Part shown: positions 56,799 to 63,329 of the stretch, piece by piece
How the letters are laid out: each line of letters opens with the position of its first letter
Position numbering within the stretch: the first letter of the stretch is position 1
Source: Fragilariopsis cylindrus CCMP1102
Taxonomy: Eukaryota > Bacillariophyta > Bacillariophyceae > Bacillariales > Bacillariaceae
NCBI GenBank assembly: GCA_900095095.1
Contig: FMBT01000475.1
Location: forward strand, 22,451-86,450
DNA: 64,000 nt
Direction: 5' to 3'
Translations under genes and position numbers: made by a program
Notes under the pieces: model-generated
What the model saw: the letters and a program-made list of their open reading frames with translations, nothing else
Told to the model about the DNA's origin: nothing
Database searches by the model: none

Positions 56799-58224
56799 TT
56801 ACGATTGTTGACATTGGACAGGTTGTGCACCACCACCACCTTCTTCATCCGAATCGTATTCACCACCTTGATTAGAAACACCCCCCTTACCGAATTGTGT
56901 CACATCTGAAGCCTCACAATGAACAATTTCAGTGGTATCCGCATCATAATCAACATCCATTGTGGTTGACTTCGGACTAGGCAATATTTTTTTCAATTGT
57001 TCAATAGTTTTTGCATCCAGGTCACCATCTGATGGAAATTCAACTGTAAATAACACATATAAATACCTTTCACAAATGGATTACCATGTGACGGCATACC
57101 TTCATTAGGAATGATTTTTGTAAATGGTCGTCGATCATTCGTTTCTGGTTTAATAACTTCAACCGGGTGTGGATCGTACCACAAGATCCCGACCATCTAA
57201 ATGTTCAATTTTCCATTCAAATCCACATAATGCCTCATGTAAACTTAATGTTTTTGATACCAGTAAATCAGCACCCTTCCGTTTAAAGACAGGATGTTCC
57301 TTTTCTTGAATGACAAAATTAATATTACCAGGTTCAATATTCGGTTTTTCATCACCTTTGCCACGGAACACAACTTTTTGTTTATGTTTCATCCCCTTTT
57401 CCACTAATACCTCCAGGACTTCACGTTCGCGTTTGCGTTTGCATTGATACCCTTCTCCGCCACATTCGGAACAACGACGTTGCATTTGTTGGACCATACC
57501 CAATGCAATTTGACGTAATTCAATCACAACACCCTGTCCGTCACAACCAGTACAGACCTTGGCAGTACCAATAATTACTTGACGTGTAATAGCAAGTTTG
57601 ACAGTCTTTCCATTATATAATCTTCTAAACTAACTTTGAGAGGATGATTGACATCTTCCCCGCGCTTTGGTCCTTGTGGTCGACCACGTCCTCCTGCTCC
57701 GCCAAAGAACATTGAAAATAAATCTTCTTGGCTACCACCACCACCTCCGCCTTCCTCTAATCCTTCTAATCCATATTTATCATATTTGGCACGTGTTTCT
57801 GGATCACTTAATACCTCGTATGCTGTGAATTTAATTTGTGATTTTAGAGAGAGTGAGAGAGTGAGAAAGAGATACGAAAAGTGAGTGAGTTACTCAGTTT
57901 AATTTATTTTATTTGATCGATCCGTTCATTCATTCGCTACTGTAATTAATGGCTGTACAAACTACGACGTCTACGGTAGTACTCACCGGCATTCACTTCC
58001 TTGAAATGATGCTCGTCACCACCTTTATCGGGATGATGTTTGATTGCCATCTTTCTGTAGGCCTTCTTGATTGCTTTCGCATCCGCAGTTTTTTCAATTT
58101 CCAGTGTTTCATACAACTTGGTGGTATCAACGTTTGCCGATGCAGGACGACCACCAGGTCGACGGCCACCGCCACCACCACCTTGAGAAAAATGTTCCGC
58201 GAAAGGATCTCCACCAAAAAACAT
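56799..58224 (-). CDS. Type I DnaJ (Hsp40) co-chaperone with reduced zinc finger
   Basis: DnaJ proteins deliver clients to Hsp70 and stimulate its ATPase. Exon 1 (58224-57987) holds the J domain: [20 protein letters not shown] and the HPD motif in IKHHPDKGG. The intron (57986-57823, GTGAGT...ACAG) splices to [21 protein letters not shown] Gly-rich segment and [16 protein letters not shown] follow. Only two CxxCxGxG zinc motifs are seen (CTGCDGQG and CSECGGEG) where four are usual; the first and fourth are replaced. The rest ([53 protein letters not shown]) is canonical. Frame changes occur near 57618 (a T missing in TTATATAATGG), 57160 and 57062. The C-terminus ends acidic with no CaaX box (QPVQCQQS). 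Confidence 0.88.
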
Positions 58225-58903
58225 GATTAAATTATTAAAGTTATTATTTAAATCTCTGTATTGTTGAAACTAGATTAGTTTGATGTTGTTTTTTGTTACA
58301 ACAAGGAGTATCAAAGATAGAATATGAAATGACTGTGTGAGGGTGGTCTTGTGTTTGGATGTTCTCAGTACTGTAATTTCTTTTTTTTTGTCGTCGGTGA
58401 TTAAAACGCAATTTCAATGGGAACCACGAATGCTTTGTTTCGACTCACTCCTCTCTTTCAAGTGCGGAATTTATTTTTTTTCTTTTCAAAAAAACAAAAC
58501 AAAAGCAATGGCAGTAGATGTCGCACGACGTGGTCGTAAACAGCAATGCTACGCTGCCTGCGATTGGTGGACGATGAATTCTTTCATTTTCGCGCGAAAA
58601 TCGAAAATGCACGTGCTATACCTACCTTAGTAGTGTATGTATGTATCATGCTTAACTAAGCTATCTACCTTCATTCACCGTGACACGTGCATCGTCATCG
58701 TCAAACCAAAACAAAAACAATATAATAATCCATACTGCTACCAAAGAATACAAACAACATCATTCCATCGACGATGGACTTAAATCAGATCAGATTCAAA
58801 TCAGATTCAGATTCAGATCAGACTCAATGACAGCATAGTAATGATGTGAGATAAGAGGCTATGAATAGTTCAGAGTTTTCGTCCAGCGAAATATCGCAAC
58901 ATA
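58225..58903. other. Divergent intergenic region
   Basis: 680 bases between the DnaJ gene (-) and the B12-related fusion gene (+). No gene is recognised. A second possible start for the fusion gene, ATG at 58861, is in a different frame. No cobalamin riboswitch was recognised, and none is expected in a eukaryotic leader. Confidence 0.5.
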
Positions 58904-61900
58904 ATGCCACTATGCAGCCAAGAAACGACAGTAGAAAAAACGCCGTCGTCGATGACAACAAGTACACGTACACGTACACGTAGTCCAGAATGCAAATGCA
59001 GTATCCTTGTCATATCTGGAACCAATTCAGGTGTTGGAAAAACTACTGTTACCGTTGGACTTATGACAGCATTTGCTCAACAGGGATATATAGTTCAACC
59101 ATTTAAGGCTGGTCCTGATTTCCTAGATGGGATGCATCACGAGGCTGGTATTCGGGCAGGAGAAAAGGAGTTTAAACAACGACAAAGTAGTAGTAGTATT
59201 GAGAAAGAAGAAAAAGAAAGTAATATTACTGAAGATGTGGATTTCACAGATATCAACGGACGGCATCGAAATCATCGACGTTGTATCAATCTAGATGGAT
59301 GGATGATGAGATCTCCTGATATCGTTCTCGCATCCTTCCATTACCATAGTCAAGGTGCAGATATTTGTATCATTGAAGGTGCAATGGGTCTACACGATTC
59401 AATAGATGGAATATCTGATGATGGTTCAGCTGCTCAAATTGCTAAATGGTTGAATGCACCTGTCGTGCTGGTGGTAGACGCTGGTAAGATGGCACGATCA
59501 GTTGCAGCAATGGCTTTGGGATACACAGTTCTTGATAAAGAAATGAGAATGGGAGCTGTAGTAGTAAATCGTGTAGGTGGTAAGGTTCACATCGATTGGA
59601 TTAGAGATGCCGTAGAACACGAGGGAAGGAAAACCGGTGGATTATTGAAAGATGTGGGTACGGGAGAAGCAGTTTGTTTGCGGGTGCATTACCACAAGAT
59701 GGAAGTGTGGCTGTTCCGGAACGACATTTGGGTTTGACAATGCCAAACGAACAACAACAACAACAACAACAACAACATCATCAGGAGGAACAACTAGATC
59801 AGAATCAGGATCAGGATGAGAACGAAATGCGATATTTACGTTTAGCAGCTCTTGTGGAAGATAATCTAGATATGGATGCACTGTTCAAGATTGGCCAAAC
59901 GTCGCGTCAAGTAGCACAAGTATCAGCATTCTTGTCAAACTCTATTATACCACCACCCATACTCCAACCGGAACCATCTACAACCTGCTGTCGAATCGGT
60001 ATAGCACAAGATGAAGCATTCTGTTTTTATTACAGAGATAACCTACATCTTCTCCGACTGGCAGGTGCCGAACTCGTTCCATTTAGTCCCCTCACATCAT
60101 CACATCTCCCTCCCGCGTTGGATGCGTTGTACATTGGTGGTGGATATCCAGAACTACATGCACAAAAATTGCAAGAAAATGAAACACTTCGCAAGGATAT
60201 TCAAAGTTTTTCTCAAGCAGGAGGAGCAGTATTTGCTGAGTGCGGAGGATTGATGTATTTATCAAATAAATTACTTCTGTCGAAAGCGGAAACATATAAT
60301 ATGTGTGGAGTGATACCAATTTCAACGAGAATGACACCCCATTGCAAAATGTATTATGCAAGTATTGAATTTACATCCCAAAATCCACTATTTCCGTCCG
60401 GGGGGGCGCATTGTCGTGGTCAATTATTTCATTTTTCTGAAATCGTTGAAGAAGGGGCTGAGAATGAAATTTCATCTCCATTCATGGTAACACCACAACT
60501 TCCAGGTGCAAATCCAGAACCAGCTGGGATCGTCGTATACAACACATTCGCAAGTTACCTTCATCTTCATTTTGCATCGTTCGTGGATAAAGGTAAAAGT
60601 GATGCAAGTGGAAATTATAATGCTGGATCATTCAAGACAAAAACGCTGGCTGATCATTTTATACAAAAGGCAATCGCAACCTCTCCCCATCGAAAAGCTT
60701 ATGCTGTATCCTTTGTATCCGCGGCAACGGAAATCGTGTATGCGTTGAGACAAGAGTCTGCGCTAGCAGGTGTTACTTCGATTTGTGATTACCCCACAGA
60801 AGCTAGATGTGCTCCACGGCGGATTGTATGTCGACCATCGATTGACGCATCGTCCATGACGAGCGAAGAAGTAGAACATGCCATGGAGGAAATTCGGAAG
60901 CTGAAATTGGAGCATGGTAAGGAGGGTCCGCCCCGCCATTGGTTCGTGGATGGAAAAGCATTGCACGCAATGAATCCGCGAGTGGTGTTTGTACAAAATA
61001 CTTGTGATGTATGTGATGCTTCTTCCGATGATGTCCTACATGCATTGAATGAGCACGGGTTATCGGAAACAACTTCCGTCGTTCGTATTGCACCTACAAC
61101 ATTGAATGGCCTTTTTGATTCCATTAGGGATATTGCCAATGCTCTTGATTGCCAGGATCGTGGAAATAATTTGATTCAATCCCTCCAAGATCGCCTAGGA
61201 CGCGTAAAACATGAAATTGCACAACTAAAGGCACCAAGACCAAGAATTTTGTCTCTCGAGGACTTGCGCCTTTATGTACTGGAGGGCACTGGCTGCCTGA
61301 TTTGAAATATGAAAGTGGTTCCATTGATGCGCTTGGTGATATTGGTGGATGTCCTGCGAAAATACTAATGTGGGATGAGATAGTAGATGCAGATCCGGAT
61401 ATACTTGTGATTCGCCGTGTTCGGCAACCCCTGAACGAACACTTAACGAGCTGCACTTGTTGGCATCAAATCCCAATTTTTGGAAACTCGCTGTGTGCAG
61501 AAAGGTTGTGTGTATATAATTGATCATGGTCTATTTTCTCGCCCAGGGCCTCGGTCTAGTAGAAGGCATTGAAATGATGGCAACGCTATTTCGATGCATT
61601 CTCCACCATCGCCGTCAATATTGAAGAAGTGGGATAAGCAAATACTCAAATACGACTGCAGTACTAAATATGAATGTAACACCATTTCTCATTGTACAAC
61701 TGAACTTGCCGCCCGATTTAGTCCATGCCTTCTTGGGCGTCAGAAGAACGATGATGAATGCTCTACAGCTGAGAAATCTAGTCAAATAGTACGAAAGAAT
61801 AGATTGCGCTTTTGTAAACGTTACAAGATGTACTATTCCAAACTTTCAGCTTCCCGACAACCGTTCAGTCATTGCCTTATTCCTATACAAAGAAAAATGC

Positions 61901-63329
61901 AAAATGATGTGTCACTGTTGCTTATTGGGGGTGAGAACAAACAAGCTCAGCGCCTTAATGATACATGGGAGCTTCATCCCCTTCAAAAGGATGGAATTCT
62001 ACTTCTGAATGCAATGATATAGATCTATCCCCTCGAACTCTTGGTACCACATCAACATGGGAGTATCTTCGATGTGGCAAGATAGCTGGCGAAGATGTAC
62101 CCACACGTAGATCGAACCACGCTGCTGTAGCATGCGGCGACCATGTTCTGGTATTGGAGGTGGGGAGTGAACAATCTAACTCCGCTTACTCATTGTGAGC
62201 TACTACACATAGAATCCTTATGTTGGACTCACTGCTCGACACGTGGATCATTTGAACCAGGTCCAAGAGGTAATCCAACCCTTGTTTACTCCGACGAGAG
62301 AAACTGCGCCTTTCTGTTTGGTGGCTGGAATGGCAAACATGCTCTGAATGATGTATGGCGTCTGGACATGAACAAGTGGCAGTGGCAAGAGTTGGTTCAA
62401 GATTCTTCCATCATTGATGGAAAGAGCGTTGAACGAAGCTGGCCAACTCCCCGAACTGACCATACATCTGTCCTATGGGAACAAGACGAGAATAATGAGA
62501 GTATGCTAGTCTTCGGCGGTAATATCGAAGGACAAGGTGCCTGTTCAGAATTATGGGAACTTGGTGATCTCGACCACTGCCTGAATGACACTCGCCTGAA
62601 TGGTGAAAGCAAAAAAGCATATCATTGGGGGCATAATCAAAGTTTCTGGACCAAACCACCAGCAAGAACTTCTCATACAGCCGCTATTGTTGGAAGACTG
62701 GATCACGCAAGAATGGTGATTGTAGGAGGTACTTCTTCGGCATTAGGTGCCGGTCGTGGATCTATGATTTGTGATGCATGGATATTAGATCTTGGACAAA
62801 AAGATGGTATGTCAACTTGGTTGCAACTAGGATTGGAGTGGCATTGCCGTAGATCGTTGTAGACATTCGATGGCTTTTGTAGATGCTGAAAAATCGTAAT
62901 CTATGGCGGTTACGACGGCGAGGTTACGCTCGATGGGCGTATTGGGGTATGGCAAGGAAATGTGCCACTTCTGGGAGAAAGCAAGGCTCAGTACTTACAA
63001 AGATTTCGCCAAAAGTAAAAAACTGAGAAAGCACAAGATAGATGGACAGCAGAAATTCCGGTCAGGGTCCAAGATTTGTCACCTGAAACGCTCGCAAAGG
63101 CCAAACGTAGTAGGTTACCTGGTGCAATTTACAAAGCACTTCATCGCATGCGGTTTCTTTTAATCGTGACACATACATTGATCCTGATAGCGGATATTCT
63201 GTCTTCTCTCAAGTTTATTTGAAGAGAAAACCATGCTGTGGGAACGGTTGCAGGCATTGTCCTCACGGTCACGTCAATGTTCCTGGAAATAAGAAGTACG
63301 AGGACACGAATTTAGAGTTAGACTGGTGA
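58904..63329 (+). CDS. CobB/CbiA - BtuF-like - Kelch - DUF5522 fusion protein (frame-broken)
   Basis: Four modules lie in order on one strand. (1) Cobyrinic acid a,c-diamide synthase: Walker A SGTNSGVGKTT (59016-59048), PFKAGPDFLDG, IEGAMGLHDSIDG, PERHLGLT, then a GATase domain with catalytic Cys in FAECGGLMYL (60241-60243) and His in RGQLFHFSE. This family amidates the corrin ring with ATP and glutamine. (2) A BtuF-like metal- or corrinoid-binding fold from about 60690: VSFVSAATEIVYALRQE, GHWLPDLKYESGSIDALG, and the phrase DHGLFSRPGPR. (3) Kelch repeats from about 61900: LLLIGGENKQAQRLNDTWEL, AFLFGGWNGKHALNDVWRLD, MVIVGGTSS. (4) A Cys-rich DUF5522 end: YLKRKPCCGNGCRHCPHG. At least eight frame changes interrupt it (near 59672, 61275, 61430, 61560, 61985, 62155, 62850-62900, 63000-63150). 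All key residues of module 1 survive. Confidence 0.85.

Follow-up and report, generated by a model that had tools for sequence, protein, structure and literature searches.

Vitamin B12 supply is limiting for many marine algae, and it is an open ecological question which of them can make use of corrinoids that are incomplete or 'wrong', for instance the pseudocobalamin of cyanobacteria. Corrinoid remodelling in algae has been described via CobT, CobS and CobC; the same work reports that the algal genomes it analysed yielded neither cbiZ nor cbiB and that T. pseudonana was negative for CobT and CobS (PMC4850488). The algal uptake protein CBA1 resembles BtuF structurally (PMC10828217), and a CobB-like transcript has been noted in one haptophyte (PMC4057078). 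DUF71 proteins with an ENGEF/YH motif are predicted to act in B12 salvage (PMC3541065), and cbiA/cobB occurs in 46% of bacterial precursor salvagers (PMC6461909). A plasmid cluster of Deinococcus radiodurans comprises genes for a binding protein, CobO, CobB, CbiB, an aminotransferase and CobQ. Here we describe a gene of the diatom Fragilariopsis cylindrus CCMP1102 that joins a CobB-type amidase, a BtuF-like module, Kelch repeats and a DUF5522 domain. It lies near the end of the window, by which we mean the whole stretch of 64,000 nucleotides that was analysed, namely the last 64 kb of contig C196 (FMBT01000475.1, positions 22451-86450 of 86450) in an assembly of 67.9 Mb; C- and L-numbers are the contig and locus labels of this analysis. 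Vancaester 2020 is said to describe five consecutive late cobalamin genes that were gained by diatoms and are complete in this species.

The first-pass annotation of the window, which was made from the DNA letters, had set out from the view that diatoms generally lack full cobalamin synthesis. This view needs qualifying, as a study that cites Vancaester 2020 lists seven diatoms with CobU and three with bluB, its own species still being called unable to make B12 (PMC12803021).

Results

A single open frame joins the four modules

The gene runs from ATG to stop at 58904..63329 on the + strand, exactly the span first assigned to it. Pfam searches with pieces of the window placed CbiA, GATase_3, Peripla_BP_2, Kelch and DUF5522 on this strand in that order, and each of them scored above its Pfam cut-off in a second copy on contig C672 (L008:3562-7989), confirming the four modules together with their proposed order and strand. 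The C672 copy is a stop-free frame of 1489 codons and encodes 1475 amino acids counted from the ATG. Since this copy is a single open frame, the four-module fusion is real, and an artefactual joining of adjacent genes is ruled out. The idea of one joined gene thus holds for C672, but the frame of the window copy is broken: relative to C672 it contains 20 frame-changing gaps of 1-2 bases, which the first-pass annotation had missed. The copies also differ by four further in-frame gaps within the gene and by 63 mismatches in 4556 aligned bases. C672 aligns to the window piecewise, from about 27.3 kb to the window end, and therefore most likely represents the other haplotype.

The window copy might instead be a genuinely decayed allele, as the 20 frame-changing gaps inside the gene would suggest and as would codon differences in which changing codons are no rarer than synonymous ones. 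We regard such decay as improbable, since 19 of the 20 gaps lie after position 61250, in the terminal 2.7 kb of the contig, and the 1 kb at 60250-61250 is almost free of mismatches to the intact copy. In addition, a neighbouring gene, DnaJ-like by eye (window 56799-58269, - strand), is likewise split over several frames in the window and whole on C672, where it forms a 380-codon frame (L008:1414-2553); this makes an error at the contig end likelier than decay of the gene. The comparison of the two sequences favours an uncorrected contig end, rather than decay of the fusion gene, as the origin of the frame breaks, and decay of the window copy would leave the intact C672 copy unaffected.

The first module is of the CobB type

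In the window, the CbiA-type P-loop domain of the CobB module (59009..59630, + strand; Pfam CbiA 62.7 bits, cut-off 25.4) contains a Walker A motif (59015-59047) and the motif EGAMGLHD (59372-59398), and the GATase_3 glutaminase domain (59992..60579, + strand; Pfam GATase_3 118.7 bits, cut-off 27) contains the Cys motif ECGG (60232-60261) and the His motif SYLHLHF (60553-60579). The Walker A, GATase Cys and His that had been reported as intact were thus all found in the window's own DNA. In the intact C672 copy, the module scored above the NCBIfam cut-offs for CobB (PRK01077, 389.1 against 254 bits; TIGR00379, 349.6 against 261.4 bits) and below that for CfbB, the nickel-sirohydrochlorin amidase (336.4 against 560 bits). 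A CobQ identity was rejected (36.4 and 56 bits against cut-offs of 309.9 and 273).

When the fusion was aligned with five other CobBs, two from the diatom and three from bacteria, the P-loop, GPDxLD, EGxMGLxD and ECGG proved invariant in all six sequences. The His motif is present in the fusion, C78, L103 and L105 and deviates in L104; the C46 piece stops before the site. In the fusion's module, about 50 residues are inserted after GPDFLD. The 25 PDB sequences listed for the module (E up to 1) included no chain named CobB, and a scan of viral contigs with the whole fusion protein confirmed no relative.

CobB is encoded at three loci in the genome, namely the fusion, C78, which is 46% identical to the fusion, and the C46/C566 pair. 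This third locus (L009:3660-5075 and L011:4474-5772) is of another type, and one TGA closes its frame at the same place in both copies, which may reflect either an intron or damage to the gene.

DUF5522 and its partners in the diatom and in bacteria

The DUF5522 domain (63142..63278, + strand) scored 60.9 bits in the window and 56.3 bits on C672 against a Pfam cut-off of 25; a CCxxxCxxC motif is present on C672 and appears in the window as CCGNGCRHCP (within 63228-63263). DUF5522 was found at four places in the genome, which represent three genes, and all three are fused to B12-type partners. In addition to the window fusion, one gene with introns on C558 (L024:1082-3810, + strand) joins a partial BtuF-like domain (20.6 bits, under the cut-off), DUF5522 and DUF71 with the motif ECGEFH, and a gene on C91 (L025:1557-3575, - strand) joins DUF5522 to a PduO-type cobalamin adenosyltransferase (177.3 bits).

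We sampled bacterial genome contigs for DUF5522 using two peptide patterns, which matched 160 stretches, 56 of them confirmed. Open reading frames (ORFs) were called by a simple rule, and four loci in which no called ORF matched DUF5522 were dropped, giving 52 usable loci. In six of these, BtuF-like genes, DUF71-B12 genes or both were fused to DUF5522 or lay near it: fusions to DUF71 were seen in L030 and L031 and a fusion to a BtuF-like domain in L047, BtuF-like genes adjoined DUF5522 in L031, L050, L061 and L071, and DUF71 lay at most two genes away in L047, L050 and L061. Among the 712 ORFs of the 52 loci, all five BtuF-like and all five DUF71 matches were located no more than two genes from DUF5522 (rough P 2e-5). 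A Pfam tally of 57 neighbours, hand-picked from 285 (mostly the nearest genes, close relatives left out), was led by Peripla_BP_2 (5) and Diphthami_syn_2 (3), with the others shown reaching at most two; the 57 were chosen after the phmmer matches had been seen, so that the tally is not independent of that result. The CCxxxCxxC motif was present in all 52 bacterial DUF5522 ORFs.

A separate arrangement was observed in Pseudoalteromonas and Enterovibrio (L060, L065, L066, L067, L073 and L079), where the small DUF5522 protein carries, ahead of this domain, a second Cys-rich region at its N terminus; no BtuF-like or DUF71 match was obtained near DUF5522 in these loci. The single literature search aimed at DUF5522 yielded no paper that names it.

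The BtuF-like module and the Kelch repeats

The BtuF-like module (60694..61650, + strand; ends mapped from L008) has a binding-protein fold and matched Peripla_BP_2 with 39.8 bits on C672, the in-frame part of the window module reaching 25.5 bits, under the cut-off of 27.5. The fusion gave no match to the NCBIfam BtuF equivalog at E <= 0.001, and a paralogue on C611 scored 24.4 bits against a cut-off of 234. According to family alignments, from which L061 was omitted, the module belongs to a four-cysteine family without a signal peptide, unlike transport BtuF. The alignment and a motif search placed its Cys sites at SICDYP (60778-60795), CDVC (60994-61023) and GGHWLPDL (61281-61304), all on the + strand. 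Five relatives of the module were found on plasmids, one of them unannotated, and the four annotated ones start without a leader.

Between this module and DUF5522, the Kelch repeats (61850..62920, + strand; ends mapped from L008) matched Kelch_KLHDC2 (PF24681) with 151.4 bits on C672 and 81.3 bits on the window piece, the cut-off being 50.

Late B12 pathway genes elsewhere in the genome

The genome, in which silicon transporters (27 matches, best 1.1e-226) very likely point to a diatom host, encodes the B12-dependent methionine synthase MetH and a series of late-pathway types. CobU and CobS types scored above their Pfam cut-offs, as did CbiB types on three contigs; a CbiZ type reached 108.9 bits (Pfam cut-off 27) and BluB 184 bits (cut-off 150). 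A CobT piece scored 283.9 bits, under its cut-off of 319.3, and exon pieces of a CobQ type scored 120.2 and 77.2 bits, each under the cut-off of 273. Candidate GT-AG introns, several for each gene, rejoin the CbiB, CobU and CobQ frames. The nucleotide-loop assembly genes are present, as in a cobinamide-salvager-like organism (category as in PMC6461909). A CobD candidate on C89 was rejected because HisC is the better match (224 against 143 bits).

Searches for two families, CbiC and the TP-methylases, turned up no corrin ring building; CbiD, CbiJ, CobG and cobaltochelatase were not searched. CbiC had no match in the genome, and the TP-methylases comprised two genes only, best named Dph5 (316.8 bits) and a siroheme-type methylase (a piece). 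Since late-pathway genes are present and ring building was not found in the tested families, corrinoid salvage or remodelling is a good frame for this genome, whose B12 gene set, judged from sequence, looks like a late pathway of the salvage/remodelling type.

Two arrangements of these genes were also observed. On C451 (L114:2205-4944, - strand), the CbiZ-type ORF lies about 0.6 kb upstream of CbiB-type exons on the same strand, and the two are possibly one CbiZ-CbiB gene. On C679 (L099:2335-9020), a span of 10 kb holds CobU with a DUF4346 domain joined to it, CobS/CobT, and a long hydrophobic ORF that matched nothing in Pfam; this is a B12 gene cluster on a diatom nuclear contig.

Discussion

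On balance, we think that the fusion is probably a single gene for a multifunctional enzyme of a late diatom B12 pathway of the salvage/remodelling type. Corrinoids whose amidation is incomplete, either precursors of the cobyrinic acid type or deamidated products of breakdown, would be amidated by its CobB module at the a and c acetates, with ATP and glutamine, and would then pass to the adenosyltransferase, CobQ, CbiB, CobU and CobS/CobT. This reading draws on the CobB-level scores and invariant motifs, the intact frame on C672, the late-pathway genes, the B12-type partners of DUF5522 in the diatom, the closeness of BtuF-like and DUF71 genes to DUF5522 in bacteria, and the D. radiodurans cluster. 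More tentatively, the corrinoid could be held by the BtuF-like module, whose four conserved cysteines might, together with the CCxxxCxxC motif of DUF5522, handle cobalt or a metal cluster at hand-over, and the Kelch repeats might dock a partner. A broader proposal, which we consider possible though somewhat doubtful, is that DUF5522 is an undescribed B12-handling module common to bacteria and diatoms, coupling cytosolic four-cysteine BtuF-like corrinoid carriers to corrinoid enzymes (the amidase, DUF71 and the adenosyltransferase). The diatom would thereby be able to turn corrinoids that are incomplete or 'wrong' into cobalamin, by assembly, remodelling or repair, using CobB, CobQ, CbiZ/CbiB, CobU, CobS/CobT and its own 5,6-dimethylbenzimidazole from BluB, and would be short only of ring building.

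Corrinoid salvage or remodelling had already been suggested in the first-pass annotation, and MetH, the late genes, the lack of CbiC matches and the presence of just two TP-methylases support it. Corrinoid binding by the BtuF-like module, the other half of that interpretation, has fared less well, and this part of the evidence belongs with several points that weigh against our proposals. The fold of the module is predicted to match heme binders as well as B12 binders, in a comparison that spans residues 1-294 of 351, barely covers the DUF5522 fold and was made with a modelled protein that is not the diatom's own. The module belongs to the four-cysteine family that lacks a signal peptide, all four of its annotated plasmid relatives are without adjacent B12 genes or a transporter, and the BtuF-like neighbour in L061 has no CxxC motif. 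Among the bacterial DUF5522 loci, 46 of the 52 gave no BtuF-like or DUF71 match by phmmer, so that DUF5522 has other contexts too, and the candidate association of CobB with bacterial DUF5522 was rejected because none of the loci contained a CobB match (E 1e-3). Several late-pathway genes scored as exon pieces, under NCBIfam though above Pfam cut-offs; CobD was not found in the genome, and the alga has no known source of cobyrinic acid. Finally, of 1429 codons compared between the two copies of the fusion gene, 25 differed synonymously and 35 with a change of residue, counts that are affected by errors in the window copy and do not indicate strong constraint.

The principal alternative places the gene in siroheme or heme metabolism, the amidase acting on the alga's own siroheme-type ring and the BtuF-like module binding heme or siroheme. 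The a and c acetates are shared by sirohydrochlorin, the genome encodes a siroheme-type methylase and, in the families tested, showed no corrin ring building, heme binders are among the best predicted fold matches, and CfbB, which amidates nickel-sirohydrochlorin, is a relative of the module. We nevertheless hold this alternative to be unlikely, given that the module passes the CobB cut-off and not that of CfbB, that the partners of DUF5522 in the genome are an adenosyltransferase and a B12-type DUF71, and that the CobQ-, CbiB- and CbiZ-type genes would be left without a reason. Kelch repeats and binding-protein folds are common in regulatory proteins, and the fusion could also be a corrinoid sensor or scaffold whose enzyme module has turned regulatory, with the two other CobB loci supplying the chemistry. 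The retention of the catalytic motifs and a CobB score well over the cut-off speak against such a change of function, to which we give still less credence.

Bacterial contamination of the assembly as the source of the B12 genes was rejected as extremely unlikely. The gene families are bacterial in origin, and the CobQ, CobU, C558, C91 and C78 genes are each found on a single contig. However, the fusion includes a Kelch module of eukaryotic type, and second copies exist of the fusion, C46/C566, C611/C706, MetH, CobS and CbiB. Together with the candidate GT-AG introns in CbiB, CobU and CobQ, these second copies argue against contamination, as do contigs of up to 1.24 Mb with neighbouring genes that look eukaryotic by eye.

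If the fusion gene does encode an enzyme of late B12 metabolism, the alga may finish, remodel or repair B12-type molecules, beyond importing the vitamin. With CbiZ-, CbiB-, CobU-, CobS-, CobT-, BluB- and CobQ-type genes and the CobB fusion in one diatom, corrinoid use becomes directly testable, and the association described here offers a functional lead for DUF5522 in bacteria and eukaryotes. The late B12 pathway of diatoms is partly known already. In our literature search, part of which took in the best 15-20 of up to 483 papers, neither the fusion nor a diatom CobB, CobQ, CbiB or CbiZ was mentioned, and a prior description is possible, notably in Vancaester 2020; nor did this search find a description of the link between DUF5522 and B12, of cytosolic BtuF-like proteins with four cysteines as a family, or of the CbiZ/CbiB pair, for which an earlier description is possible as well.

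Among known systems, the fusion resembles the CobB/CbiA cobyrinate (hydrogenobyrinate) a,c-diamide synthases in family score, P-loop, glutaminase and motifs, and differs from them in its three added modules and the insertion after GPDFLD, and in occurring in a eukaryote without the tested ring-building genes. Unlike BtuF and the heme and B12 binders of ATP-binding cassette (ABC) importers, its BtuF-like module has four conserved cysteines, lacks a signal peptide and is part of a larger protein; no transporter partner was seen beside the four annotated plasmid relatives, BtuC and BtuD not having been searched in the alga. The D. radiodurans cluster shares the late-pathway block and a CobB beside a binding protein, but its genes are separate, and its binding protein starts with a leader and is without the four cysteines. 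As in the DUF71-B12 subgroup (PMC3541065), DUF71 with an E-x-GEFH motif is fused to or near DUF5522 in this genome and in bacteria, whereas the window fusion carries CobB and Kelch and no DUF71. The genome has CobS and CobT types in common with the algal remodelling pathway described in PMC4850488, and to these it adds CbiZ, CbiB, CobU, CobQ, CobB and BluB types.

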